The translations under genes were made by a program, and so were the position numbers. Source: Lachnospiraceae bacterium (GTDB lineage: Bacteria > Bacillota > Clostridia > Lachnospirales > Lachnospiraceae). Taken from it: 51,225 nucleotides of DNA. Below, in pieces: positions 21,401 through 46,911 of the stretch (its first letter is position 1; every line of letters starts with the position of its first letter). The DNA lies in NCBI GenBank assembly GCA_017552715.1, contig JAFZOW010000050.1, forward strand, positions 1 through 51,225. The letters are read 5' to 3'. The notes under the pieces were generated by a model. That model was not told where the DNA came from, searched no databases, and was given only the letters and a program-made list of their open reading frames with translations.

Positions 21401-23128
21401 ATGTCACATAAAAAGAAAACGCTGCCGGAGGGCGGTAAAAAAAGAAAAAGAAAAATGTTCCGATGGGGGCGCATGAAGCTGACACGCTCCCTTCTTTTTG
21501 CGTTTGCAACAGCCGGAGTCGTTCTGCTCGCTGTGTTGGTAGCTGCCTTTGCCAGTCTTTTTTCCGACGGAGGAGAAGGGAAGCAGGCGGCACAGCGCGT
21601 CGAGATGAGCGTATCCGAACAGGCGGCGATGTCGGAGCAGGTGGTACACGTGCTGTATCCCGAACCGGATGTGGTGGCGGCAGCAGAGGAGGCGGCCCGG
21701 AAGGAAGCGGAAGAGAAGGCGCGGAAGGAAAAAGAAGAAGAGGAAGCCCGTATTGCCTCCGAAAATGCCGCGGCAGCAGCGGAGGAAGAAGAACGCGAGG
21801 TGCTGCGTGCCCAGGGACCGGGCTGCCGGCTGGTGGACGCAGCCACCATTGCCCTGACGGCTGAACTGGGGAGCATGCCCGTGACCGATGATGATGTGCT
21901 CTATGTCTATGAGCTGGCTCCTTATCAGTACAGCCTGGAAGGGGCGGCGCAGATCGCAACTACGGCCGTATCCCAGAAGCCGGCGGTGAGCTTTCCCTTT
22001 GCCGGAGACGGGGCAGTCTCACGTCTGTATTGCAAATTCGTGTTCGCGGCCAATGTGGGCGGGACCATGACCATGCTGGGAGAACCCCAGTATATCACCA
22101 ATCCGGAACTGCTGGCCACCAATACGAAGCCCCGGAGTGCTTATCCCACCAAGTCCATTCAGGGACATGGGACCTGCCATAATTATTACCTGGACCGGGG
22201 TTACGGCGGGGAAGGCATGATGCTGATCGTGAACAATACCGGCCAGAATGCGGTGCTGAAGCATCCGGCCGCCAGCAGCCCGGATTCCCATATGGTGGAT
22301 GAGGGACCGTTGCTCTATATGTTCAATGCGGCCAATGCCGACGGGGTGAATGCCCTGGCCAGCGGCCTTAAGAATCTGGCAGCTTCCCATAATACCCAGG
22401 ATTTCGTGATCGGCAATGAGGTGAACGAACGGAAATGGTGTTATGTGGCCTACATGGACTGGGATCAGTACGTGCGGGAATATGTACAGAGCTTCCGGGT
22501 GGCTTATAATGCCATCAAGAGCACCAATGCCAATGCACGTATCTTTTTCTCCGTCAGTCAGGACTGGGACCGCAACCGTCCGAGCGGCAGCGCGGAGTAT
22601 TACTGGTATCTTGATTCCAAGGATTTCATAGCCAAGTTTAACAGCCAGATCCGTGCCGGCGGGAATATCGACTGGTGTATCGCCTGTCATCCCCATACGG
22701 TTCCCCTGACCTATTCCAAATTCTGGGATATGTCGGGACTGGGGAACGGAGGCTATTTTGCGGCGCAGATCTCCAGCGGGGCCATGATGAGCTTTCAGAA
22801 TCTGTCGCTTCTGACCAATTATCTGCAGTCACCGGAGCTGCTGTCTCCGGCAGGAAAGGTGCGGCCGGTCATTGCCAGTGAAACGGCCATTGCCGGCGGC
22901 CAGGGGGCGGAGGTGCAGGGGGCGGCGCTGTATGCGTCTTTCCAGGCCAGTCTGCGCAACCCTTATATTGAAACGATCATTTACCTGGAAGACCCTACCA
23001 TAGGGGCGGTTTTTTCCGGGAAAGCAAGAGAAGTATATGATGCCATGGGAGGGCCCGAGGATGCGGCATACGACGCCTGGGCCAAAGCAGTGATCGGGAT
23101 CAGCGACTGGGGGCAGGTGCTGCGCTGA
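21401..23128 (+). CDS. Membrane-anchored GH-A-like barrel protein (DUF5722-like)
   Basis: A 575-residue protein with a very basic N-terminus, one membrane helix (about 31-53), an Ala/Glu/Lys-rich helical stalk (about 88-130), and a C-terminal region resembling DUF5722 proteins of Clostridia. Two Glu fit a clan GH-A retaining glycosidase: E340 in FVIGNEVNERKW (acid/base, Asn-Glu pair) and E494 in PVIASETAIAG (nucleophile). Activity and substrate are unknown; glycosidase is inference from the pattern. The ATG at 21401 lies 7 bases after the -10 box, so initiation may be leaderless; ATGs at 21455 and 21473 are alternatives. It is 38 bases upstream of the big surface protein and may be co-expressed with it. 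Confidence 0.75.
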   Translation: MSHKKKTLPEGGKKRKRKMFRWGRMKLTRSLLFAFATAGVVLLAVLVAAFASLFSDGGEGKQAAQRVEMSVSEQAAMSEQVVHVLYPEPDVVAAAEEAARKEAEEKARKEKEEEEARIASENAAAAAEEEEREVLRAQGPGCRLVDAATIALTAELGSMPVTDDDVLYVYELAPYQYSLEGAAQIATTAVSQKPAVSFPFAGDGAVSRLYCKFVFAANVGGTMTMLGEPQYITNPELLATNTKPRSAYPTKSIQGHGTCHNYYLDRGYGGEGMMLIVNNTGQNAVLKHPAASSPDSHMVDEGPLLYMFNAANADGVNALASGLKNLAASHNTQDFVIGNEVNERKWCYVAYMDWDQYVREYVQSFRVAYNAIKSTNANARIFFSVSQDWDRNRPSGSAEYYWYLDSKDFIAKFNSQIRAGGNIDWCIACHPHTVPLTYSKFWDMSGLGNGGYFAAQISSGAMMSFQNLSLLTNYLQSPELLSPAGKVRPVIASETAIAGGQGAEVQGAALYASFQASLRNPYIETIIYLEDPTIGAVFSGKAREVYDAMGGPEDAAYDAWAKAVIGISDWGQVLR

Positions 23129-35943: not shown

Positions 35944-37852
35944 TATGAAAGAATTCTGGGGCATGATGAATGTCCTGGACAATGCGGATGATGTGGCGAT
36001 CTTTGTGGTGAGCGGCAGGGACGGAAATATCCTGTACTGCAACCATCTGGTAACGGTGCTGACAAATGCCCATGCGGGAAGCCATGTTTCCCAGGTGTGG
36101 GATATGGAGGATTACCAGAAGGCGAATACCCGCTGCAATGAGGGCGGGACCTACCGTTATCTCGTGGAGCAGTCCCCCTTCGGCAAACGCCGTAATGTGA
36201 CGGTGAGCAAGGTGGTATGGAGCCGCGGGATCCTGGCCTATTCCTTTGTGATCACTGCCCATGTGGATGATGAGGAGGAAGCGGAGAGAGACCGTATCTT
36301 CTCGATCCTGGGTAAGGATTACCGGCATATCTTCCTGATGGATATGATGAAGGGAGAGGTGACCACACTCCTAAAGCCCGAAGCCGGAGGCGAAGGCCAT
36401 TACCGTGCGGTGTACTATCATCCGGTACGTTTTGATGAATGGAAAAAAGAGCTGATCAACGAGCATGCCCATCCGGATGATTCCGAACAGTTGCTCCATT
36501 TCCTGGAACCCCTGGAGGTGCGGGACCAGCTTTCCAAAGGTGATTATTCTTTCCAGTACCGCAGACGTCAGGGGGATGAGTTCCGCTGGACGGAGCTGCG
36601 TTTCCGACGCCTGAGCGAGCTGAACGGCCGTGTGGTATGCACTGAGCGTGATGTGCAGGGAGAGACCCTGGTGAGCGGCCGCGAGCGGGAGAACGAGATC
36701 ATCTTAAGCTCCCTCAGCAACGTGTACCGTTCCATTTATCTGCTGGATCTGCAGACGAAGCAGTATGTGACAGTAAAAGCGGATACCCTGCTCTTCGGTA
36801 TACCCGGGGAGGGGAGCGTGGACGGTCTTCTGGAGATCGTGTCGGAATTTATCCCCGATGAGGGACAGAGGCGTGACCTTAATTCCGCCTTTTCTGCTGA
36901 AGCTCTTGCGGAGGCATTTTCCGGGGATGCGGAGAATGTGGTGCGGGAGTATCATTCCGCCATCAGCGAAGGGGAGAGCTGGATGAGTGTCAATGCCTTC
37001 CGTCCTCCCTATATGCAGGGGATGGAGGATAAATGCGTCTTAAGCTTCATGGATATCACCGAGCATAAGCGGGTGGAGGAAGAGCGGAACGAGAAGAATA
37101 TCATCATCGATATCCTGTCTTCCCGCTATACCTGCGTGTATTTTGTAAATCTCCTGGACGGGAGCTTTCATTCCATTCAGGTGCCTCAGAAGTACCGCTA
37201 TATCGAGAAGCAGTTTGCCACCGTGGACGAGGCCATGACCCATTATGCCAAGGCTTATGTCCTGGAGCAGTACAGGGATATCTTCCTGAACAATATCTCC
37301 ACCCGGGAGATCCGGGAACAGTCGGATGATGGCGTCTTTCGGGAGTATATCTACCGTACGGTGGAGGATCAGTGGATCCGGCTCCTGATCTATACCTTGA
37401 ACGAGAACGGCCGCCCCGGCGTCATCCTTCTTTTTGAGGATAATACGGACAGGATGGTACAGAGGGAAATGTCCCTCATGTATAACGCCGCACTGCTGGC
37501 GGATTATGATTATATGTTTGAATACGATCCGGATATCGATCAGATCTATACCCTGCTTTTTGACGGGGAACGACTGGTGCGGGAAAACAGCCTGGATTGC
37601 GGCATGCATACCGAGCGCTTCAAGGATCTGGTGCCCATTCATCCCGATGACCTGCTCATGCTGGTGAATGCCTGCAGTCAGGAAAGCCTGGATGAGACCT
37701 TTGCGGCGGGAAAGACCGTGAGCCATATGTTCCTGCGCCGCATGACGCCGGAGGGATACCGCCTGTATATGTACGGGCTCCATTTCTATGAGGATATGGG
37801 ACGCCGGAGGGTGCTGATCATGGCCCGGGACAGTGAGAGAGAGTGGATCTAG
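35936..37852 (+). CDS. Multi-PAS protein without output domain
   Basis: A 638-residue soluble protein built of about five PAS-like units. PAS_3-type HPDD motifs occur near 178-183 (EHAHPDD) and near 575-580 (IHPDD), and PAC-like strands such as FRWTELRFRR follow. No GGDEF, EAL, kinase, methyl-accepting or DNA-binding domain is present; it ends right after the last PAS unit (LIMARDSEREWI). Related Clostridia proteins often end in GGDEF, so loss of that domain is possible, but no remnant is seen downstream. GAAGGAAAAAG precedes ATG 35936, which overlaps the pepD end. Ligand and partner unknown. Confidence 0.65.
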   Translation: MIDMKEFWGMMNVLDNADDVAIFVVSGRDGNILYCNHLVTVLTNAHAGSHVSQVWDMEDYQKANTRCNEGGTYRYLVEQSPFGKRRNVTVSKVVWSRGILAYSFVITAHVDDEEEAERDRIFSILGKDYRHIFLMDMMKGEVTTLLKPEAGGEGHYRAVYYHPVRFDEWKKELINEHAHPDDSEQLLHFLEPLEVRDQLSKGDYSFQYRRRQGDEFRWTELRFRRLSELNGRVVCTERDVQGETLVSGRERENEIILSSLSNVYRSIYLLDLQTKQYVTVKADTLLFGIPGEGSVDGLLEIVSEFIPDEGQRRDLNSAFSAEALAEAFSGDAENVVREYHSAISEGESWMSVNAFRPPYMQGMEDKCVLSFMDITEHKRVEEERNEKNIIIDILSSRYTCVYFVNLLDGSFHSIQVPQKYRYIEKQFATVDEAMTHYAKAYVLEQYRDIFLNNISTREIREQSDDGVFREYIYRTVEDQWIRLLIYTLNENGRPGVILLFEDNTDRMVQREMSLMYNAALLADYDYMFEYDPDIDQIYTLLFDGERLVRENSLDCGMHTERFKDLVPIHPDDLLMLVNACSQESLDETFAAGKTVSHMFLRRMTPEGYRLYMYGLHFYEDMGRRRVLIMARDSEREWI

Positions 37853-37946
37853 TTACGTTGAGGCTTTCGGCCACGTGCTGTCGGGATAAGCAGGCAAGCA
37901 TTTGGTCCGTGTATTTAAGAATCGATACACCAGGGAGGGGAGGATT

Positions 37947-38369
37947 ATGAGAAAGAAAACGCTGAACATCGTACTGGACGGCTTTATCGTGATGCTTGCC
38001 ATCACCGCGGTACTGCTGATCATACTGATCCTGAAACGGGGGGATGTGCCGGTAGCTGCGCAGGATAAAACTCCGGAACCCACCGTGGCGACAACAGCAT
38101 CGAAAGATACGGATAGCGGGAAGGATGAGGAGCCTACCCCCGAGCCTACGGAGGCAGAGCCTACCCCCGAGCCTGCGGATGAGAAGGTCTATGTGACCGC
38201 CAATGATTCCGTAAACATCCGCTCCGGCCCGGGAACGGATAACCCTGTGGTAGGATCGGCTTCACCGGGAGACAAGTTCGAGCTGGTGGAAAAGACGGAT
38301 ACAGGCTGGACGAAGGTGAAATACAACGGCAGCGATGCTTATATCTTCACGGATTTCTTAGATTTCTGA
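37947..38369 (+). CDS. Membrane-anchored SH3-domain protein
   Basis: 140 residues. GGGAGGGGAGG precedes ATG 37947. One N-terminal helix (about 8-30) anchors it, a Pro/Glu/Thr linker with PTPEPTEAEPTPEP repeats follows (about 50-75), then a bacterial SH3b domain (about 76-140: VYVTANDSVNIRSGPGTDNPVVG, GWTKVKYNG, YIFTDFL). SH3b domains bind peptidoglycan or related polymers. Architecture (anchor, PT-rich spacer, outside domain) resembles the barnase-type protein at 249. It is the last plus-strand gene before convergent PBP1A. Confidence 0.85.
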   Translation: MRKKTLNIVLDGFIVMLAITAVLLIILILKRGDVPVAAQDKTPEPTVATTASKDTDSGKDEEPTPEPTEAEPTPEPADEKVYVTANDSVNIRSGPGTDNPVVGSASPGDKFELVEKTDTGWTKVKYNGSDAYIFTDFLDF

Positions 38370-38420
38370 GTTATTTTCTTAAGCCCTGTAAGGCGGTTCT
38401 TTTGTAAGGGGCTATGGAAA

Positions 38421-38588
38421 AAGGACGGGCATATGTATTCAATGCAGCGACCGTATTTTGCCGTCGTCGCTTAGTGAGCAGGCCGGACGCGGTTTTATCC
38501 AGCGTCCGGCCGTTTTGCGAACTTAGCGTCCGTTACTGGCAAAATCCGAGCGGAAGCGTGTCGCAGCATGAATACATATCCCGTCCTT
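38421..38588. repeat. 168-bp imperfect palindrome between convergent genes
   Basis: The ends are inverted repeats: AAGGACGGG-c-ATATGTATTCA from 38421 returns, inverted, ending at 38588. The arms 38421-38451 and 38560-38588 share 28 positions with two one-base insertions and one mismatch. Inside, ATTTTGCC (38455-38462) pairs with GGCAAAAT (38538-38545), and the centre is a perfect 10-bp hairpin GGCCGGACGC/GCGTCCGGCC (38481-38511) followed by GTTTT. No target-site duplication is evident. It could be a MITE-like element or an elaborate shared terminator. Confidence 0.75.
38481..38516 (+). terminator. Central GC-rich hairpin, probable terminator
   Basis: GGCCGGACGC, 11-base loop, GCGTCCGGCC, then GTTTTG. 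The GC-rich stem with short T run fits a terminator for the plus-strand genes. On the minus strand no T run follows. Confidence 0.55.
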
Positions 38589-38607
38589 ATGTAGTTCTGA
38601 CAACAGA

Positions 38608-41232
38608 TCAGTCGATATCGAAGTGTATCCCCATGGCTTCCAGGGCATCCCGCTGCTGTTCCAGGATCGCCCGGTGGTTTGGATCGGCGAAGAATTCCGC
38701 ATTGTGCGGGCAGGAGGTGCCGTGGTACTCATCCGTAGAATCCGAGCCGGCCCAGAGCACCTGAGGCTCCGGCGGGTTCAGGGTCACCACGCCTTCCACA
38801 CAGAAAGGACACATGGCATCCGCCGGCAGTCCCGTAGCCATACAGACATTTCCGGCATAATGTACGTTACAGGTCTCGTGGGGCACGGTACCTTCGGCAA
38901 AATATTCCGTACGTACGCAGTCGTCGCAAAGCCCCGGGATGGGGAGTTTGCCCGATTTGCTGCATACCGTGGCCATAGTGATCCCTGCAGGTACTTCAAA
39001 GGAGCGGTACTCCAGGTTTTCGTGCAGCCTGGACATGACGGCCCTCCACATGGTCTGTGAGAGCTTCCGGTCTGTTCCGGGCAGATCCTCGTTATTGTCA
39101 TAGCCGGTCCAGCAGGTGGCTGTATAATAAGGTGTAAAGCCGGCGAACCAGACATCCTTGTAGCTGGTGGTGGTTCCGGTCTTACCGGCCATGGCCATGC
39201 CACCGAAGTTTACGGCACCGCCGGTACCCTTGGTCACCACGTCTACCATGGCATCCGTGAGCAGGAAGGCCGTGGTCTCTTTGATCACGCGATGCTGATC
39301 CTGGGACTGGGTCTTGTCGATCAGCAGATTTCCGTCATGATCCACGATGCGGGTATAGAGCAGGGGTTCCATATACATTCCGCCGTTGGCAATAGTACCA
39401 TAAGCGGCGTTCAGTTCCAGATTCGTGATACCTTTGGTGATACCGCCAAGGGCCAGTGCCTGGTTGATATCGCTCATGACCTCGCCCTGGGAGTTTACCT
39501 GGCGTTCCACGAGGGTGGTAAAACCAAAGGACTTCAGGTAGTCAAATCCAAGTTCCGGACGGACCACCGTGAGGGTCTTGACTGCGATGATGTTCAGGGA
39601 CTGTTCGATACCGTAACGCAGGGAGCAGATCCCCTTGTAATCCTCCCCGTACCAATTGGCCACGGGACGCCCGCCGGTATACTTGAAGGGGGCATCCACA
39701 AACACATCTGCCAGAGTGAGGCCGGCGGAATCCAGAGCCGGGGCATAAGCAGCCACGACCTTGAAACAGGAGCCGGGCTGACGGGTGGTGGTGAAGGCAC
39801 GGTTCAGGGAACGGCTGGTCTCCTTGGCGCCCCGTCCGCCGATCATGGCCAGCACGTGGCCGGTGGTATGATCCGCCACCGTAAGGGAAACCTGGGGCTG
39901 AGGAGTCAGGGAGATGCTGTCCGCAGCGACCTCGTCACCGGGCTTCATCACCGCATCAAGGTATTCCTGAATGGCGGCGTAAGCATCATCCTGGGTGGCA
40001 TAGATCATGTTGAATTTGGGATTGCCCTTCTCCCGGAAGAATTTCCGGAACATCTCCGTCGAATGGTTCTCGACTTCGCCGTCTGAGTGCCGTATGGATA
40101 CACGGTAATTCAGATACCAGTGGGTATTGTCCGGGTAATTGGCTTCATCAGAGTAGATCTCGTCGCAGATGGCCTGGATGCGGGAATCCTGAGTGGTATA
40201 GATGGAAAGGCCGCCGCTGTAGAGCAGATTGTAGGCCTTGGCCGAAGCCTGGGATTCTACATAGCCGTCGGCGATGAACTTTTCAGTAAGATCTTTGGCG
40301 ACCACATCAATGACGGCATCCTCAAAGTAGGAATAAACGCTCTCCTCCTCCACCAGAACGTTGGTGGCGGTGATACGGGCGTAGACGTCATCTGCCATGG
40401 CATCGTCGTATTCCGCCTGGTTGATATAACCCAGCTCCAGCATATCGTCCAGAACCTTTTTCCGGCGTTTTGCGTTCCCTTCGGGATGAAGGATGGGATC
40501 GTTGGCGGAAGGGTTCTGGGTGATGCCTGCGATGGTAGCGGCCTCGGAAAGGTTCAGCTCGTGTACCGGCTTGCCGAAGTAGCGCATGGATGCAGCCTGA
40601 ACGCCCAGGGTGTTATGCCCCAGGTTGATGGTGTTCATATAGAGTTCCAGGATCTGGCGCTTGTCCAGAGTCTTTTCCAGCTCCATGGCCAGGAACTGCT
40701 CCTGGATCTTACGGCGGTATTTGTCGAAACCTTTTTCGGCAGTCCATTTGTCAAAGACGTTGTTCTTGATGAGCTGCTGGGTGATGGTGGAAGCGCCCTG
40801 CTTGAAATTGCGGTTTTTCAGGCCTATGGCGGCGGCACGCATGATACCTTCGATATCGATACCGTTGTGCTGATAGAAACGCCGGTCCTCAACGGCCACA
40901 AAGGCGTCGCAGAGGACCTGGGGGACCCGGTCTATGCTCACATAGGTACGGTTGGAGTTTTCTGCCACCAGTTTGGTGAGCTGATGCCCCTCGCTGTCGT
41001 AGAGATTGGTGGCGTAGCCCGTGGGGGTCACGTCGATGTTCTCCATGGAAGGGGTGGATGCCAGGATGCCCCGGAACATGCCGATGCCCAGGCAGGCGCC
41101 GATGACCACGCCCGCAAAGAGACAGATCATGATGGCCTTGATCAGGTTGATGCCCAGCATCTTCTTGATCTTGGTACCCTTGGAGCTTAACTGCCGCTGT
41201 TTTCTTTTTATACCTTCGCGCGAATAATCCAT
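38608..41232 (-). CDS. Bifunctional class A penicillin-binding protein (PBP1A)
   Basis: Builds and cross-links peptidoglycan. An N-terminal cytoplasmic segment (MDYSREGIKRKQRQL) and one helix (about 30-55) precede the GT51 transglycosylase domain (VEDRRFYQHNGID, TITQQLIKN). The transpeptidase domain has SxxK as SCFK in RQPGSCFKVV, SLN, and KTGTT. The C-terminal part is Cys-rich (GLCDDC, MCPFC), a feature seen in Clostridia. 874 residues from ATG 41232. The start codon sits 9 bases after TATAAT, so the mRNA is nearly leaderless and no Shine-Dalgarno sequence is possible. Divergent from yigZ. Confidence 0.93.
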   Translation of the reverse strand: MDYSREGIKRKQRQLSSKGTKIKKMLGINLIKAIMICLFAGVVIGACLGIGMFRGILASTPSMENIDVTPTGYATNLYDSEGHQLTKLVAENSNRTYVSIDRVPQVLCDAFVAVEDRRFYQHNGIDIEGIMRAAAIGLKNRNFKQGASTITQQLIKNNVFDKWTAEKGFDKYRRKIQEQFLAMELEKTLDKRQILELYMNTINLGHNTLGVQAASMRYFGKPVHELNLSEAATIAGITQNPSANDPILHPEGNAKRRKKVLDDMLELGYINQAEYDDAMADDVYARITATNVLVEEESVYSYFEDAVIDVVAKDLTEKFIADGYVESQASAKAYNLLYSGGLSIYTTQDSRIQAICDEIYSDEANYPDNTHWYLNYRVSIRHSDGEVENHSTEMFRKFFREKGNPKFNMIYATQDDAYAAIQEYLDAVMKPGDEVAADSISLTPQPQVSLTVADHTTGHVLAMIGGRGAKETSRSLNRAFTTTRQPGSCFKVVAAYAPALDSAGLTLADVFVDAPFKYTGGRPVANWYGEDYKGICSLRYGIEQSLNIIAVKTLTVVRPELGFDYLKSFGFTTLVERQVNSQGEVMSDINQALALGGITKGITNLELNAAYGTIANGGMYMEPLLYTRIVDHDGNLLIDKTQSQDQHRVIKETTAFLLTDAMVDVVTKGTGGAVNFGGMAMAGKTGTTTSYKDVWFAGFTPYYTATCWTGYDNNEDLPGTDRKLSQTMWRAVMSRLHENLEYRSFEVPAGITMATVCSKSGKLPIPGLCDDCVRTEYFAEGTVPHETCNVHYAGNVCMATGLPADAMCPFCVEGVVTLNPPEPQVLWAGSDSTDEYHGTSCPHNAEFFADPNHRAILEQQRDALEAMGIHFDID

Positions 41233-41241
41233 AACGGAGGT

Positions 41242-41270
41242 ATTATACACCTATCCGGGAAAAATTGCAA
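41242..41270 (-). promoter_or_regulatory. PBP1A promoter, sharing its -35 with yigZ
   Basis: On the minus strand: TTGCAA (41270-41265), 17-bp spacer, TATAAT (41247-41242), then ACCTCCGTT and ATG at 41232. The expected start near 41235 leaves about 3 nt of leader. Confidence 0.75.
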
Positions 41271-41293
41271 AATAATCGCTTATCATGTAAAAT
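41265..41293 (+). promoter_or_regulatory. yigZ promoter, sharing its -35 with PBP1A
   Basis: On the plus strand: TTGCAA (41265-41270), 17-bp spacer, TAAAAT (41288-41293), then ACTGTCC and ATG at 41301. TTGCAA is its own reverse complement, so the same six base pairs are the -35 of both divergent promoters. Confidence 0.75.
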
Positions 41294-41300
41294 ACTGTCC

Positions 41301-41939
41301 ATGGCTGAGAGAAAGATCCTCCTGGAAGGCGGAGTGGGGGAATACGAGGAAAAAAAGTCCCGTTTTATCGCTACGCTCCGTCCGGTACGCAGCGTCGAAG
41401 AGGCGGCTGCCTTTATAGAGGAGATGAAAAAGAAATACTGGGACGCCAGGCACAACTGTTCCGCCTTTGTGATCGGGAAGGGAAATGCCCTGACACGCTG
41501 CTCGGATGACGGGGAACCCTCCGGTACGGCGGGGCGGCCTATGCTGGATGTGCTCTGCGGAGCCGAGGTACGGGATGCGGCGGTTGTGGTGACCCGCTAC
41601 TTCGGCGGAACGCTGCTGGGAACCGGCGGCCTGGTGCGGGCCTACTCCCAGGCGGTAAAGGAAGGGCTGGCCAACAGCATCCTGGCTGTGGAAAGGGAAG
41701 GGGAGCGTCTGCTCCTGGCCATGGCTTACCCGGATGTGGACCGTGTGCTGCGTTGTCTGGAGGAAGAGGGCATAAACCCGGAAAAGAGTGATTACGGTGC
41801 GGACGTTACCATGGAAGTGGTCTGCGCCAGAGAAGCGGCGGAAGGACTCTGCCGGAAGCTCACGGATATAAGCGCCGGCAGAGTACTGGCGGAAAGTCTG
41901 GGAGAGTGCGTGTTCCTGGAGAGGGAAGGGATCAGCTGA
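41301..41939 (+). CDS. yigZ: YigZ/IMPACT-family protein
   Basis: 212 residues. The N-terminal IMPACT domain (about 1-125) shows EYEEKKSRFIA, DDGEPSGTAGRPML and VVTRYFGGTLLGTGGLVRAYS, the family signature; a ferredoxin-like C-terminal domain (about 135-205) follows. Biochemical role is not settled; the eukaryotic relative acts on the GCN1/GCN2 translational stress path. ATG 41301 lies exactly where transcription should begin, so the mRNA appears leaderless. Its 3' end overlaps the convergent folA gene by 8 bases. Confidence 0.92.
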   Translation: MAERKILLEGGVGEYEEKKSRFIATLRPVRSVEEAAAFIEEMKKKYWDARHNCSAFVIGKGNALTRCSDDGEPSGTAGRPMLDVLCGAEVRDAAVVVTRYFGGTLLGTGGLVRAYSQAVKEGLANSILAVEREGERLLLAMAYPDVDRVLRCLEEEGINPEKSDYGADVTMEVVCAREAAEGLCRKLTDISAGRVLAESLGECVFLEREGIS

Positions 41940-42423
41940 GCTTTCGATAGCTTACGAAACGGTACTCCAGATCGAAATAGGTCTGTTCTTCGCTCTCTTC
42001 TGTTTTTTCCCAAGCGGGATCCTTATCCAGGTCCGGGAAGAAGGCATCTGCTTCGTAATTGTGGTCGATGCGGGTCACCTCCGCACAGTCGCAGTAGGGC
42101 AAAAGCTGGCGGTAGATGCTGTCTCCGCCGATGATATACACGTCTTTTGTATCATATTTCTTAAGCTCTTCCAGCAGTTCTTCCACGGAATGTACCACAA
42201 GAGCATCTTTTACGGTATAGGACGGATCCCGGGACAGGATGATATTTGTGCGGTTCTTTAAGGGTTGGCGTCCGGGAAAGGTGTCCATGGTCTTACGGCC
42301 CAGCACCACCACCTTGCCGGTGGTGATCTCGCGGAAGCGCTTATGATCCTGAGGGATGCTCACCAGAAGCTGCCCCTTGTTGCCGATGGCCCAGTTATTA
42401 TCTACTGCTACGATAAGATTCAT
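41932..42423 (-). CDS. folA: Dihydrofolate reductase
   Basis: Reduces dihydrofolate with NADPH, restoring the cofactor consumed by ThyA. Motifs: LIVAVDNNWAIGNKGQLL at the start, DHKRFREITTGKVVVLGRKTMDT, and VYIIGGDSIYRQLLP (NADPH site). The active-site acid is Asp of PQDHKRF. 163 residues. It lies 15 bases after thyA, last gene of a minus-strand operon. Its end overlaps yigZ tail to tail. Confidence 0.96.
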   Translation of the reverse strand: MNLIVAVDNNWAIGNKGQLLVSIPQDHKRFREITTGKVVVLGRKTMDTFPGRQPLKNRTNIILSRDPSYTVKDALVVHSVEELLEELKKYDTKDVYIIGGDSIYRQLLPYCDCAEVTRIDHNYEADAFFPDLDKDPAWEKTEESEEQTYFDLEYRFVSYRKLS

Positions 42424-42438
42424 TTCTTTTTCTCCTTT

Positions 42439-43287
42439 TCAGACGGCTACCGGGATGTCTTCGATCTGCGGGCCGTATTGATAATCGATCAGTTTTACAT
42501 CATCTCTCGTGAACTCGTAGAAATCGTGCTTCTCCGGGTTCAGTTCGAATTTCGGGGCCGGGAAGGGCTCACGGGAGATCAGTTCCTTTACAAGATCCAC
42601 ATGCCGGTCATAGATATGCGCATCCGCGATCACATGGACCAGCTCGCCCACGTTCATATCGCAGGTCCGTGCCAGCATATGCACCAGTACCGCATACTGG
42701 ACCACATTCCAGTTGTTGGCGGTCAGCACATCCTGGGAGCGCTGGTTTAAGATGGCGTTCAGGGTGAGCTTTTCTTCTCCGGGGCGCTGCGTTACATTGA
42801 AGGTCATGCTGTAGGCACAGGGATAGAGGTTCATCTCGTGCAGGTCCTGATGAACATAGAGATTTGTCATGATACGGCGGCTGAAGGGATTGTTCTTCAG
42901 ATCGTAGATGACACGGTCCACCTGGTCCATCATTCCTTCTTTATACTGATGCTTCACGCTCATCTGGTAACCGTAGGCTTTTCCGATGGAACCCGTTTCA
43001 TCGGCCCAGGCGTCCCAGATATGGCTGTGGAGTTCATTCACATTGTTGGACTTCTGCTGCCAGATCCAGAGCATCTCCTCGGTGGCGGACTTGATCGCGG
43101 TACGCCGCAGGGTGAAAGCGGGAAACTCCGCCCGCAGATCATAACGGTTCACCACACCGAATTTCTTGATAGTGTAGGCAGGAGTGCCGTCTTCCCAGTG
43201 GGGGCGGACCTTTTCACCCTCCGTGCTGGTACCGTTTTCCAGTATGTCCCGGCACATATCTATGAAGATCTTGTCTGCCATGCTCAT
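42439..43287 (-). CDS. thyA: Thymidylate synthase, ThyA type
   Basis: Methylates dUMP to dTMP, turning methylene-THF into DHF. AGGAGG lies 9 bases before ATG 43287. The catalytic Cys is in NLYPCAYSMTFN, where E. coli has PPCH. The dUMP-binding loop reads RSQDVLTANNWNVVQYAVL rather than RSxDxxLGxPFN; I believe this divergent form matches the Bacillus ThyA/phage phi3T type. HVIADAHIYDRHV is the conserved late motif. 282 residues. Followed by folA. Confidence 0.94.
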   Translation of the reverse strand: MSMADKIFIDMCRDILENGTSTEGEKVRPHWEDGTPAYTIKKFGVVNRYDLRAEFPAFTLRRTAIKSATEEMLWIWQQKSNNVNELHSHIWDAWADETGSIGKAYGYQMSVKHQYKEGMMDQVDRVIYDLKNNPFSRRIMTNLYVHQDLHEMNLYPCAYSMTFNVTQRPGEEKLTLNAILNQRSQDVLTANNWNVVQYAVLVHMLARTCDMNVGELVHVIADAHIYDRHVDLVKELISREPFPAPKFELNPEKHDFYEFTRDDVKLIDYQYGPQIEDIPVAV

Positions 43288-43305
43288 AATATAAGTCCTC
43301 CTGTT

Positions 43306-44646
43306 TTAGATGTTAAGAACCCTCGTGGCGATGGCGAAATACACCAGCAGCGAGAGCGCATCAACAATGGTAGTGATGAAGGGACTGGCAGTGACCGCCG
43401 GATCGAAGCCCAGCTTTTTTGCCAGAAGCGGCAGGGTGCAGCCCACCAGCTTGGCGATGAGCACCGCCAGGAGCAGGGTCATGCATACCACAAGGGCTAC
43501 GGAGAAGCCAACCTTGTCCAACAGCAGGAGCTTCACCATATTGGCGACTGCCAGGGATGTGCCGCAGAGTAAGGCTACACGGAATTCCTTCCATATAACC
43601 CGCAGTACATCTCCGAAGCCGATCTCATTGAGGGAGAGGCCGCGGATCACGGTAACGCTGGCCTGACCGCCGGCATTTCCGCCGGTATCCATGAGCATGG
43701 GGATATAGGCTACCAGTACCGGAAGGGCCCCCAGAGCTTCTTCAAAGCTCGAGATGATGCTGCCCGTGAAGGTGGCGCTGATCATCAGCAAAAGCAGCCA
43801 GGGCATACGCTTTCCCCAGATCTCTACGACCGCTGTGCGCATATAGGGTTTGTCGGAAGGAACGATAGCGGCCATCTTTTCCATATCCTCGGTGGCCTCT
43901 TCTTCGATGATGTCCACTACGTCGTCTACGGTGATGATGCCTACCAGACGGTCTTCATTATCCACGACCGGCATGGAAGTAAAGTCATATTTCTGGAAAG
44001 TGTGGGCTACTTCCTCCTGGTCGGTGAGTGTGTGTATGCTCACTACGTTTTCGTGCATGATATCGCCGATCACATCATCTTCGTCGGACAGCAGAAGATA
44101 GCGCAGGGCTACGGTGCCCTTCAGCTTGCGGGTGGAATCCAGCACATAGCAGATATTGATGGTCTCGGAATCGATGCCGATCTTCCGGATACGTTCGATG
44201 GCTTCCTTTACCGTGAGGCTTTCGTTCAGATCTACGTACTCCACGGTCATGACGGAACCGGCAGAATCCTCCGGATAACGCAGCAGGTTATTGATATCCC
44301 GTCTTGTTTCCGGACTGGCATTGGCCAGCAGCTTTTTTACTATATTGGCGGGCATTTCCTCGATCAGGTCCGTTGCATCATCGGCCATCAGGTTATCGAT
44401 GATGTTGGCCGCATCTTTTTCGGAAAGGGAAGTGATGATGGAAGACTGGTTTTCAATCTCGAGGTATGCAAAAACATCCGCAGCCATGGACTTGGGCAGG
44501 ATACGGAAAAGCTTCAGCATCTGTTCCTTGTCCATCTGCTCCAGGAAGGAAGCAATATCCGCGGAGTTCTGTTCGGAAAGCTCCTGACGCAGGCGGGTAT
44601 ACTGTTTTGTCTCTATGAGCTCGTTCAGCTCTTCAAATTCTTCCAT
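43306..44646 (-). CDS. mgtE: Magnesium transporter MgtE
   Basis: Mg2+-gated channel. Order: acidic N domain (about 1-125), two CBS domains (about 130-255), a connecting helix, and five membrane helices (about 280-446). The pore signature PMLMDTGGNAGGQ is present. 446 residues, standard. In known MgtE, Mg2+ bound between N and CBS domains closes the pore. It lies 10 bases after the diguanylate cyclase gene and 18 before thyA. Confidence 0.96.
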   Translation of the reverse strand: MEEFEELNELIETKQYTRLRQELSEQNSADIASFLEQMDKEQMLKLFRILPKSMAADVFAYLEIENQSSIITSLSEKDAANIIDNLMADDATDLIEEMPANIVKKLLANASPETRRDINNLLRYPEDSAGSVMTVEYVDLNESLTVKEAIERIRKIGIDSETINICYVLDSTRKLKGTVALRYLLLSDEDDVIGDIMHENVVSIHTLTDQEEVAHTFQKYDFTSMPVVDNEDRLVGIITVDDVVDIIEEEATEDMEKMAAIVPSDKPYMRTAVVEIWGKRMPWLLLLMISATFTGSIISSFEEALGALPVLVAYIPMLMDTGGNAGGQASVTVIRGLSLNEIGFGDVLRVIWKEFRVALLCGTSLAVANMVKLLLLDKVGFSVALVVCMTLLLAVLIAKLVGCTLPLLAKKLGFDPAVTASPFITTIVDALSLLVYFAIATRVLNI

Positions 44647-44656
44647 TGATATTTCC

Positions 44657-45748
44657 TTACTTTACTACTCTGTTTCTTCCGCCCTGCTTGCCTTTGTACA
44701 GTTTTGCATCAGCGCGGTTGATAGTTGCCTCGATGCCGAGGCGGGGGTTGAACTCTTCGCAGCCGAAGGTCATGGTGATATTGAAATGGTACTCCTTGAA
44801 ATCCATGGGAGTTTTTTCGATGGTGTGGCGGAGTTCATCCAGATAGCGATAGGCCTTCTCCATATCCATATTCTCAAAAGCAAAGAGGAATTCCTCACCA
44901 CCCCAGCGGGCCACATAGCCTTTCCCCTTCATGAACTGTTTGAAGATGCCGGCGGCAGTGGAGAGAACAAAGTCACCGGTGTCGTGACCGTAGGAATCGT
45001 TGACCTTTTTAAAGAAGTCGATATCGCCGATGGCCATGGTAAAGGGTTTGTTTGAGCGGTTGTATTCAAAGACCACACCGGCCAGATGTTCGTTCATATG
45101 CCGGCGGTTGGAAAGGCCGGTGAGGGCATCCAGGTTGGCCATACGTTCCAGATTGTCGTTGATACGGCGCAGTTTTTCTTCGGCCTGGTTGAATTTTACG
45201 CAGTAGGCATAGGCGGTGGAAATGATAGCCAGTGAGAAAAAGAACATATTGAAGGTCTGGAAGAACAGGGTGAAACGATCCGAAGGAACAGTGTACAGGG
45301 AAAGGATACTGCTCAGCTCCGACAAAAACATCAGGTAGATCATCAGACCTATGGAATACAGCCGCTTGGCCCCCATATGGGCGGTCTTGTTGAAGAATAT
45401 GAGCAGGATATTAAGAAATATCGGCAGCTCGAAACAGAGAGAAAAGCCGTGATAGAGTGTCAGCAGGGTGGAAAAGGCTATGAGGATGACATTCATCAGG
45501 ATGAGGGCCGTCAGGGTATGGTCTTCATAAGTAAGAATGAAACAGCCGATGCACATTGCAATGGCTCCGATCAGAAGAAGCCCCAGCACATAATGCTGCA
45601 GGAAAGCCGTCAGGATGCCTGTGATGAGATAGTAGATACTGAAGATCAGGGAGAGGATGCGCAGCAACACTGCCATATCCTTGGTCTCTTTCTCGTTCTG
45701 AACATCCTGCAGAAGGAAATCTTTGAATCGGGTGAACGCTCCGCCCAT
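44657..45748 (-). CDS. Membrane diguanylate cyclase (GGDEF)
   Basis: Makes the second messenger c-di-GMP from GTP. GAAAGGAG supports ATG 45748. Five or six hydrophobic segments (about 25-180) form an N-terminal membrane sensor with no known family. The GGDEF domain (about 200-363) has DALTGLSNRRHM, DIDFFKKVNDSYGH and an active ARWGGEEFLF (GGEEF). No RxxD inhibitory site precedes it at the usual spacing. 363 residues. First gene of dgc-mgtE-thyA-folA. Confidence 0.92.
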   Translation of the reverse strand: MGGAFTRFKDFLLQDVQNEKETKDMAVLLRILSLIFSIYYLITGILTAFLQHYVLGLLLIGAIAMCIGCFILTYEDHTLTALILMNVILIAFSTLLTLYHGFSLCFELPIFLNILLIFFNKTAHMGAKRLYSIGLMIYLMFLSELSSILSLYTVPSDRFTLFFQTFNMFFFSLAIISTAYAYCVKFNQAEEKLRRINDNLERMANLDALTGLSNRRHMNEHLAGVVFEYNRSNKPFTMAIGDIDFFKKVNDSYGHDTGDFVLSTAAGIFKQFMKGKGYVARWGGEEFLFAFENMDMEKAYRYLDELRHTIEKTPMDFKEYHFNITMTFGCEEFNPRLGIEATINRADAKLYKGKQGGRNRVVK

Positions 45749-45783
45749 AGCCTTCTCCTTTCCGTCAAAGCTGGTCAGAAATG

Positions 45784-45812
45784 AGTATAACACAAAAAGC
45801 CGGAGGCGTAAA
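45784..45812 (-). promoter_or_regulatory. Promoter of the dgc-mgtE-thyA-folA operon
   Basis: On the minus strand: TTTACG (45812-45807), 17-bp spacer, TATACT (45789-45784). The leader to ATG 45748 is about 28 nt. It faces away from the ilvE promoter only 7 bp away. Confidence 0.6.
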
Positions 45813-45819
45813 TCCGTTC

Positions 45820-45848
45820 TTGACAGCCCACCTGTGCGGTTTTATACT
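45820..45848 (+). promoter_or_regulatory. Promoter of ilvE
   Basis: TTGACA (45820-45825), 17-bp spacer, TATACT (45843-45848). The leader is about 33 nt with GGAAAGGAAG at 45869-45878; there is no room for a T-box or attenuator. Confidence 0.75.
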
Positions 45849-45888
45849 TTTCCTTAATAAAATTTCTTGGAAAGGAAGCGTGTATACT

Positions 45889-46911
45889 ATGGAAAAAAAG
45901 GATATCAAATGGTCGGAGCTGGGCTTTGGCTATGTGAAGACCGACAAGCGTTACGTGGCTAACTTCAGGAACGGCGCATGGGATGAAGGCGGACTTACGG
46001 AAGATGCCGATATCGTAATGAATGAGTGTGCCTGTGTTCTGCAGTATGCCCAGACCTGCTTTGAGGGCCTGAAGGCCTACACCACGGAGGACGGACGTAC
46101 CGTCTGCTTCCGCCCGGATCTGAATGCTGCGCGTATGTATGATACCGCACTCCGGCTGGAGATGCCTCCCTTCCCGAAGGAGCGTTTTGTGGAAGCGGTG
46201 AAGCAGGTGGTGAAGGCCAATGAAGCCTGGGTTCCGCCCTATGGCTCCGGTGCCACGCTCTACCTCCGTCCTTACCTTTTCGGCATCAATCCCGTGATCG
46301 GGGTGAAGCCTGCCGATGAATATCAGTTCCGTATCTTTGCCACACCGGTAGGCCCGTATTTTAAGGGCGGTGTGAAGCCGTTGACCCTTTGTGTGAGTGA
46401 TTTTGACCGTGCGGCCCCTCATGGTACCGGACACATTAAGGCGGGATTGAATTATGCCATGAGCCTGCATCCCATTGTGGAAGCCCATAAGGCCGGCTTT
46501 GCCGAGAATATGTATCTGGATGCTGCCACCCGTACCAAGGTGGAGGAGACCGGCGGAGCCAACTTCCTCTTTGTTACGAAGGATGGGGGTGTGGTGACAC
46601 CGAAGAGCGATTCCATCCTGCCTTCCATCACCAGAAGGTCGCTTATGTATGTGGCGAAGGAGATCCTGGGCCTGAAAGCAGAGGAGCGTGAAGTGCATTT
46701 TGATGAGGTAAAGGATTTTGCGGAATGCGGACTTTGCGGGACCGCGGCGGTCATCTCTCCGGTAGGAAAGATCGTGGATCATGGTAAGGAGATCGCCTTC
46801 CCCAGCGGGATGGATGAGATGGGGCCTGTTACGAAAAAGCTTTACGATACCCTGACGGGCATCCAGATGGGACGGATCGAAGCCCCCGAAGGCTGGATCG
46901 TGGAGATCTGA
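45889..46911 (+). CDS. ilvE: Branched-chain amino acid aminotransferase
   Basis: PLP enzyme interconverting Leu, Ile and Val with their 2-oxo acids. ATG 45889 follows GGAAAGGAAG; a frame start at 45781 lies before the promoter. FEGLKAY, the PLP lysine in GHIKAGLNYAMS, and EETGGANFLFV are fold-IV class signatures; the late GTAAVISPVG binds phosphate. 340 residues, the longer BCAT type. Monocistronic, with a strong terminator at 46931. Confidence 0.95.
   Translation: MEKKDIKWSELGFGYVKTDKRYVANFRNGAWDEGGLTEDADIVMNECACVLQYAQTCFEGLKAYTTEDGRTVCFRPDLNAARMYDTALRLEMPPFPKERFVEAVKQVVKANEAWVPPYGSGATLYLRPYLFGINPVIGVKPADEYQFRIFATPVGPYFKGGVKPLTLCVSDFDRAAPHGTGHIKAGLNYAMSLHPIVEAHKAGFAENMYLDAATRTKVEETGGANFLFVTKDGGVVTPKSDSILPSITRRSLMYVAKEILGLKAEEREVHFDEVKDFAECGLCGTAAVISPVGKIVDHGKEIAFPSGMDEMGPVTKKLYDTLTGIQMGRIEAPEGWIVEI

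Follow-up and report, generated by a model that had tools for sequence, protein, structure and literature searches.

The sequence analysed here, a stretch of 51,225 nucleotides (hereafter the window), comes from a Lachnospiraceae-like bacterium and contains two neighbouring genes transcribed in opposite directions, one encoding a class A penicillin-binding protein and the other a YigZ protein. The gap between them is 68 bp long and divides into consecutive segments of 9+6+17+6+17+6+7 bp. The features are as follows, with the evidence for each in parentheses.

38608..41232, minus strand: class A penicillin-binding protein gene, PBP1A-like (Pfam, TIGR02074, start register)
41233..41241, minus strand: 9 bases between the PBP1A -10 box and the ATG (ACCTCCGTT), no Shine-Dalgarno sequence (sequence)
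41242..41247, minus strand: -10 box TATAAT of the PBP1A-like gene (sequence, scanner; positional recurrence in relatives)
41248..41264, minus strand: 17-bp spacer of the PBP1A-like promoter (TTG at this distance in some relatives)
41265..41270, no strand: palindromic hexamer TTGCAA, putative -35 box in both directions (sequence, scanner; shared use inferred from spacings in relatives)
41271..41287, plus strand: 17-bp spacer of the yigZ promoter (TTG at this distance in some relatives)
41288..41293, plus strand: -10 box TAAAAT of yigZ (sequence, scanner; positional recurrence in relatives)
41294..41300, plus strand: 7 bases between the yigZ -10 box and the ATG (ACTGTCC), no Shine-Dalgarno sequence (sequence)
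41301..41939, plus strand: yigZ, IMPACT/UPF0029 family (TIGR00257, Pfam, start register)

The leftward gene product contains both the Transgly and the Transpeptidase domains of Pfam and scores 493.2 bits against TIGR02074, which is below the curated cut-off of 508.75 and does not place it in the PBP1A family proper; because it combines a glycosyltransferase with a transpeptidase domain, we refer to it as a class A PBP, PBP1A-like. The rightward product scores 176.8 bits against TIGR00257, above the curated cut-off of 167.95, and is thus a member of the YigZ family, with matches to Pfam UPF0029 and DUF1949. The start codons, ATG 41232-41230 on the minus strand and ATG 41301 on the plus strand, are both in register with those of relatives in the genus, on which ground the alternative starts GTG 41250 (PBP1A) and TTG 41265 (yigZ) were rejected.

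The hexamer at 41265-41270 is identical to its own reverse complement. Direct reading and a promoter scanner both bear out the first-pass annotation in that 17 bp separate it from TATAAT on one side and from TAAAAT on the other, and the sequence confirms that the start codons follow 9 (PBP1A) and 7 (yigZ) bases past the -10 boxes. The hexamer pairs match the consensus at 10/12 (PBP1A) and 9/12 (yigZ) positions, and TTGCAA is a weak -35 box for yigZ (4/6). The PBP1A promoter can also be scored as TTTGCA with an 18-bp spacer, so that the two promoters may not use precisely the same hexamer. At the 17-bp spacings the -35 registers coincide on 41265-41270, which makes these divergent promoters with overlapping core elements, and the -10 boxes (41242-41247 and 41288-41293) do not overlap, so the region is not a bidirectional promoter of the shared -10 type. 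By eye, the spacers have no evident symmetry that would extend the hexamer into a wider regulator palindrome.

Transcription starts can be placed by the rule of a 6-base discriminator. On this rule the PBP1A transcript is predicted to start at G 41235 with a 3-base leader ("near-leaderless"), and the yigZ transcript at the first base of its ATG or at the base preceding it. The earlier description of both mRNAs as leaderless would therefore hold up to that small leader of PBP1A, and it gains from the recurrence in relatives presented below. No match of at least 4 bases to a Shine-Dalgarno (SD) sequence lies between -18 and -4 in front of either gene, as previously proposed. Extending the search turns up AGGTG some 15 bases ahead of the PBP1A start codon, beyond the -10 box, and this would count as an SD only if transcription starts upstream of that box. 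GGAGG on the plus strand (41236-41240) was rejected as an SD of yigZ because transcription is predicted to begin downstream of it and the ATG is far off. Leaderless genes are expected to have a -10 box that ends about 5-9 bases before the start codon and recurs in relatives, and both genes conform, at 7 (yigZ) and 9 (PBP1A) bases. As sequence-based predictions, (near-)leaderless starts are well supported for both genes: because the boxes and the SD-less starts are found again at corresponding positions in relatives, we regard the two promoters as real.

The genus comparison used one genome per species. Matches that received no locus were left out: three of yigZ (G021, G029 and G005) and four others (one each in G005, G021 and G029, and a C-terminal piece in G013, whose N-terminal piece is covered by locus L009). 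For yigZ, a -10 box (at least 5/6) is found 6-8 bases before the ATG in 19 of 30 genus loci, the window included, and in a 29-row control the interval of 5-10 bases collected 18 rows, compared with 1-6 for each of eight other intervals of the same width of six. For PBP1A the box occurs 6-9 bases before the ATG in 7 of 29 rows, and six other genomes have TATAAT 7-9 bases before the ATG. The 17-bp spacing of each promoter taken singly is likewise present in relatives: with the window included, TTG is located at a spacer of exactly 17 in all seven leaderless-like PBP1A promoters and in 4 of the 19 leaderless-like yigZ promoters (outside the window in G023, G030 and G015, loci L004, L006 and L013), while the 25 other spacers from 6 to 31 yield none for PBP1A and four in total for yigZ. 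A -35 box of 4/6 at 16-18 bp is reached in six of the 19 yigZ promoters and absent in 13, and the -10 is of the extended type (TGN) in 13 of the 19 but not in the window. With a weak -35, TTG at 17 bp in 4/19 and an extended -10 in 13/19, yigZ could run on its -10 element alone.

Of the 27 different sequences upstream of PBP1A in the genus, 16 have an SD and five have neither feature, and consequently the leaderless PBP1A start is best seen as a subclade trait. The 28 distinct yigZ regions comprise 16 leaderless-like, 10 with an SD and two with neither; L004 is classed with the SD regions and has a -10 box too. In loci not recognised as members of the genus, no -10 box was found 5-10 bases before the start in 70 yigZ and 66 PBP1A cases, a comparison that is weaker for yigZ, with starts in register in only 11/70 as opposed to 66/66 for PBP1A. 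A peak of -10 matches at 10 bases before the ATG in this outgroup includes no clear leaderless genes among the sites listed, which trace partly to coding sequence and partly to ATGs in frame with, and upstream of, PBP1A starts that have an SD. In the 582 kb sampled from the window's own genome (427 ORFs), starts with such a -10 box form a small peak, with 9 ORF matches at 6-8 bases versus 0.75 expected.

The sharing of the hexamer behaves differently from the individual promoters. Among 23 head-to-head loci the shared -35 occurs in the window only, i.e., in 0 of the 22 others at three thresholds, and none of those 22 has an overlap of any pair of -35 candidates, although in eight of them one or both strands have no candidate (-10 of 5/6, -35 of 4/6) and absence of sharing there means little. 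The conservation in close relatives that the first-pass annotation had named as a check thus fails for the shared hexamer. At 68 bp the window's gap is the shortest of all, the other loci ranging from 74 to 549 bp, and at the next two shortest gaps the promoters overlap at -10 instead; overlapping -10 boxes for this gene pair are found in G001 and G022 of the same genus. The sister species G011 has a 549-bp gap, in which PBP1A has a -35 box of its own and the candidate promoter of yigZ is 35 bases away from the ATG. The palindrome TTGCAA of G013 serves PBP1A, and the yigZ promoter is nearly 200 bp away. In G015 both genes are leaderless-like and not head to head, and in G003 they are in tandem.

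A consensus scan of positions 36000-46000 returned 12 such sites versus 8.5 +/- 3.5 in shuffled sequences; since shuffles give a similar number, consensus matching alone proves nothing, and the support comes from the relatives. With both -10 boxes fixed, a -35 of at least 4/6 on both strands at spacers 17/17 arises in 0.35% of shuffles, and in 1.3% when spacers of 16-18 are admitted (the 40 bp between the -10 boxes, dinucleotide-shuffled 20,000 times), in a test that is post hoc, the pattern having been picked by eye. The shared-hexamer arrangement is unique within the 582 kb examined of the window's own genome, where 10 shuffles of the sample gave 0 each, and there is none in 400 kb from three relatives.

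We consider it probable that the 68-bp region contains two back-to-back promoters whose -35 boxes merged on one palindrome by species-specific compaction, with little interference. Both promoters would be of the sigma-A type, and with each -10 box at its own start codon both mRNAs would start at or within about 3 bases of the AUG and be translated without an SD. The gap would have contracted to a minimum in this species, so that -35 boxes that are separate in relatives coincide on one hexamer; the most likely origin of the shared box is such spacer shrinkage in one species rather than a need for a switch. Polymerase would be engaged in one direction at a time, each start being an independent event; since the starts are independent and the boxes weak, both genes probably have low constitutive expression and interfere little.

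The polymerase footprint spans the roughly 65 bp between the predicted starts. The mutual exclusion proposed earlier is sound as steric exclusion at binding, per initiation event, with the overlap of the sites directly visible; its extension to a switch does not find support. A regulator-free switch, in which polymerase facing one way blocks the other promoter, PBP1A and YigZ output alternates or is inversely coupled, and the hexamer is under selection, appears very doubtful. We know of no functional link between PBP1A and YigZ that would call for exclusion. Two other short-gap species overlap at -10, and close packing of the pair is thus not unique, but none of the 22 other head-to-head relatives shares the -35, and in further relatives the genes are in tandem or not adjacent. 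In the excerpts of PMC12825309, E. coli bidirectional promoters compete when one direction is strongly activated, but all five promoters described were too weak for competition at basal activity, and because of this result for shared -10 promoters a regulatory switch is unlikely here. It is just as improbable that the palindrome acts as a functional coupler, in which the direction of docking on one hexamer sets PBP1A and YigZ output almost wholly, as could follow from both messages lacking leaders. If it were so, the -10 overlaps of G001 and G022 would mean that coupling of the pair was reached repeatedly via different promoter overlaps.

An alternative arrangement, rather unlikely in our judgement, is that TTGCAA is used by PBP1A alone, while yigZ dispenses with a -35 and relies on its -10 box and the TG immediately ahead of it; the rightward 17-bp register would then be due to chance. 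G013 provides an example, its TTGCAA serving PBP1A with no yigZ -10 beside it, and the many genus yigZ promoters without a recognisable -35 and the frequent extended -10 point the same way. However, the yigZ promoter of the window is without TGN, TTG at exactly 17 bp recurs in three other species, and the 17/17 arrangement is rare in shuffles. That one or both genes are not leaderless, with transcription from farther upstream inside the neighbour gene or translation from the GTG or TTG codons and the boxes due to chance, is scarcely credible: the mechanical ORF list has longer starts for both genes, consensus scans do no better than shuffles, and AGGTG is available if transcription starts upstream of the -10 box, but the ATG codons align across the genus rows and the -10 boxes recur in position.

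Overlapping back-to-back divergent promoters are a known general class, and the 68-bp region resembles them in its divergent genes, overlapping core elements and steric exclusion; it differs in that the overlap is one whole palindromic -35, with start codons at both -10 boxes. Warman, Grainger and colleagues describe, in the excerpts of PMC12825309, pseudo-symmetric shared -10 promoters with starts most often 18 bp apart but sometimes 10 or 23. As in those promoters, symmetric DNA would allow polymerase to engage either way, one binding event excluding the other, whereas here the -35 is shared, the -10 boxes are 40 bp apart and the predicted starts about 65 bp apart. A shared -35 hexamer was not found among the matches listed in a literature search on divergent, bidirectional and overlapping promoters and on leaderless genes in Firmicutes, Lachnospiraceae and Clostridium, which left subscription journals mostly uncovered, nor in the excerpts of PMC4374768. 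Within one genus there is a natural series from separate promoters (most head-to-head species) through -10 overlap (clearest in two) to a shared -35 (this species), which could test the weight of polymerase exclusion as promoters pack closer.

Both genes also resemble the leaderless genes of Zheng et al. 2011 (PMC3160421, in excerpt), with a TANNNT box at -10 distance from the start codon and no SD. Transcript mapping, as excerpted, reports 15 leaderless genes in C. difficile (PMC7438776) and about 70 (about 2%) in C. autoethanogenum (PMC6873888). The present candidates suggest that leaderless starts form a small, evolutionarily stable class in a mostly Lachnospiraceae genus, unlike the Firmicutes clades in which the 2011 survey, as excerpted, found them concentrated (Lactobacillales and Mycoplasma), Lachnospiraceae not being among those it named.

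The PBP1A-like class A penicillin-binding protein gene and yigZ diverge from an intergenic gap of 68 bp (G+C 35%), which is fully accounted for by promoter parts (9+6+17+6+17+6+7 = 68). The features, read from the sequence, are:

38608-41232, minus strand: class A penicillin-binding protein gene (PBP1A-like), with Transgly and Transpeptidase domains, slightly under the TIGR02074 cut-off
41247-41242, minus strand: PBP1A-side -10 box TATAAT, 17-bp spacer from TTGCAA, then 9 bases to the ATG at 41232
41265-41270, both strands: palindromic hexamer TTGCAA, its own reverse complement
41288-41293, plus strand: yigZ-side -10 box TAAAAT, 17-bp spacer from TTGCAA, then 7 bases to the ATG at 41301
41301-41939, plus strand: yigZ (TIGR00257)

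The geometry described in the first-pass annotation, namely one TTGCAA serving two divergent promoters across two 17-bp spacers, with 9 and 7 bases left before the starts, is exact to the base. The hexamer pairs match the consensus at 10/12 and 9/12 positions, and the extended -10 element (TGN) is absent from both promoters. At its other end, yigZ overlaps the dihydrofolate reductase gene (41932-42423, minus strand) tail to tail by 8 bases (41932-41939).

Motif matches carry no weight by themselves, since a consensus promoter scan of the surroundings yields 12 sites compared to 8.5 +/- 3.5 in shuffled sequences. The shared hexamer was assessed post hoc by keeping both -10 boxes in place and shuffling the intervening 40 bp 20,000 times; a hexamer with 4/6 matches to the -35 consensus on both strands and 17-bp spacers on both sides arose in 0.35% of shuffles, and in 1.3% when spacers of 16-18 bp were permitted. 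With both -10 boxes at 5/6 or better, the arrangement is unique in 582 kb of the same genome and was found neither in 400 kb from three relatives nor in ten shuffles of the own-genome sample.

The two promoters were compared across the genus (35 genomes searched; yigZ found in 33 and the PBP gene in 34, with 30 loci returned for each). All 30 yigZ rows and 30/31 PBP1A rows begin with an ATG in the common register, the sole exception being a match cut off near a contig end. In 19 of the 30 yigZ loci (29 from the genus search plus L100, which represents genome G034), a -10 box matching 5/6 or better ends 6-8 bases before the ATG, and in a positional control on 29 rows the window of 5-10 bases holds such a box in 18 rows versus 1-6 in eight other windows of the same width. 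For PBP1A, TATAAT lies 7-9 bases before the ATG in 7/29 rows; control windows more than 28 bases upstream are equally rich (4-8 rows), as expected when relatives led by a Shine-Dalgarno (SD) sequence have promoters farther up. Among 27 distinct PBP1A rows, 16 have an SD and five have neither an SD nor a leaderless-like -10. The strongest evidence that both -35/-10 registers are functional is that TTG recurs in the leaderless-like promoters (PBP1A 7/7, yigZ 4/19) with a spacer of exactly 17 bp to the -10, compared to none for PBP1A and four in total for yigZ at all remaining spacers of 6-31 bp. The -35 is not general for yigZ, since 13/19 of these promoters carry TGN and 13/19 are without any 4/6 -35 at 16-18 bp. 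The proposal of two promoters is supported by -10 positions and TTG spacing that recur in relatives.

Transcription usually starts about 7 bases below the -10 box. By this rule the yigZ transcript would begin at the AUG or one base earlier, and the PBP1A transcript at G 41235 with a leader of 3 bases. No SD match of at least 4 bases occurs at -18 to -4 before either start; an AGGTG farther upstream of the PBP1A start sits before its -10 box. In outgroup rows (75 loci, L037-L111, minus five from genus genomes), neither PBP1A (0/66) nor yigZ (0/70) has a -10 box within 5-10 bases upstream of its start; the yigZ set is the weaker one, with only 11/70 chosen starts in register with the window's. 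Open reading frames that lack an SD and have a promoter-like -10 box 6-8 bases upstream number nine of 427 in the own-genome sample (0.75 expected from other -10-to-start distances), 3 of 134, 4 of 89 and 1 of 77 in three relatives (0.5, 0.75 and 0.5 expected) and 3 of 298 in the outgroup set (1.42 expected). Part of the nine are likely due to chance; from these counts, leaderless starts look like a minor yet real class in this genome and genus, comparable in size with the approximately 2% of genes in C. autoethanogenum and the 15 genes in C. difficile given in the parts consulted of PMC6873888 and PMC7438776, respectively. The leaderless, SD-less reading of both genes, as first annotated, is well supported by the -10 positions next to ATG in relatives. 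Leaderless-like arrangements also precede a DUF5722 gene in the window (21401-23128; TTGTAA-17 bp-TAAAAT-7 bases-ATG, no SD) and, in the genome sample, genes for a DUF6056 protein (L155 1585-2895, minus strand; TTGACA-17-TATAAT-6-ATG), an Exo_endo_phos (Pfam) protein (L192 16389-16931; TATAAT-7-ATG) and a tRNA-synt_His (Pfam) protein (L198 16913-18112; TTGACA-17-TATACT-9-ATG).

The shared -35 is real in the sequence and found in the window's species only. The yigZ gene is head to head with a PBP gene in 23 of 30 loci, with gaps of 68, 74, 79, 112 and up to 549 bp; at three threshold settings none of the other 22 has a two-strand -35 hexamer, nor do overlapping -35 candidate pairs occur among them, eight of the 22 giving no -35 candidate on one or both strands. 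The sharing therefore stands for the window, and its conservation fails in relatives. The sister species (G011, gap 549 bp) retains the PBP1A promoter (TTGCAT, 17, TATAAT, 7, ATG), and its yigZ promoter candidate differs, lying 35 bases from the ATG. Its gap (L003) contains a 57-base stretch twice (2224-2280 and 2530-2586, 95% identity), perhaps an intergenic repeat family. G013 has PBP1A with identical TTGCAA, 17, TATAAT, and yigZ 241 bp away with its own promoter candidate; in G015 both genes are leaderless-like though not head to head; and in G003 (L031 1470-1503) a PBP1A-like gene and yigZ stand in tandem, 7 bases from PBP stop to yigZ ATG.

Mechanistically, polymerase with the main sigma factor would dock on TTGCAA in either orientation, and docking one way would mask the opposite site, making initiation events mutually exclusive in time; both genes could nevertheless be expressed, since each event would clear the promoter. 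The annotated regulatory switch, in which PBP1A and YigZ production would be inversely coupled, is unlikely and has no comparative support, the shared -35 having been found in one species only. In the portion of PMC12825309 consulted, all five E. coli bidirectional promoters tested were too weak for competition at basal level, and competition appeared only when one direction was strongly activated. The element in common is a -10 in those promoters and a -35 in the window; by analogy, we would expect little interference between promoters with boxes at 10/12 and 9/12.

Other short gaps are packed differently. In G001 (74 bp, L026 1473-1479) and G022 (79 bp, L014 1462-1468, numbered on the reverse complement of the stored locus, which places yigZ on the plus strand), -10 boxes TATTAT and TATAAT overlap across strands with an offset of one base, a layout like that of E. 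coli bidirectional promoters with a shared -10. Overlapping -10 candidates also occur in loci L018 and L029, where the yigZ-side candidate is 70 and 123 bases from the ATG. In a midpoint-rooted FastTree phylogeny of PBP1A and YigZ, the three short-gap species fall in three separate clades, and their nearest kin have gaps of 549, 158-238 and 138 bp. The simplest account is repeated, independent packing of the divergent region, reaching a shared -35 in the window's species.
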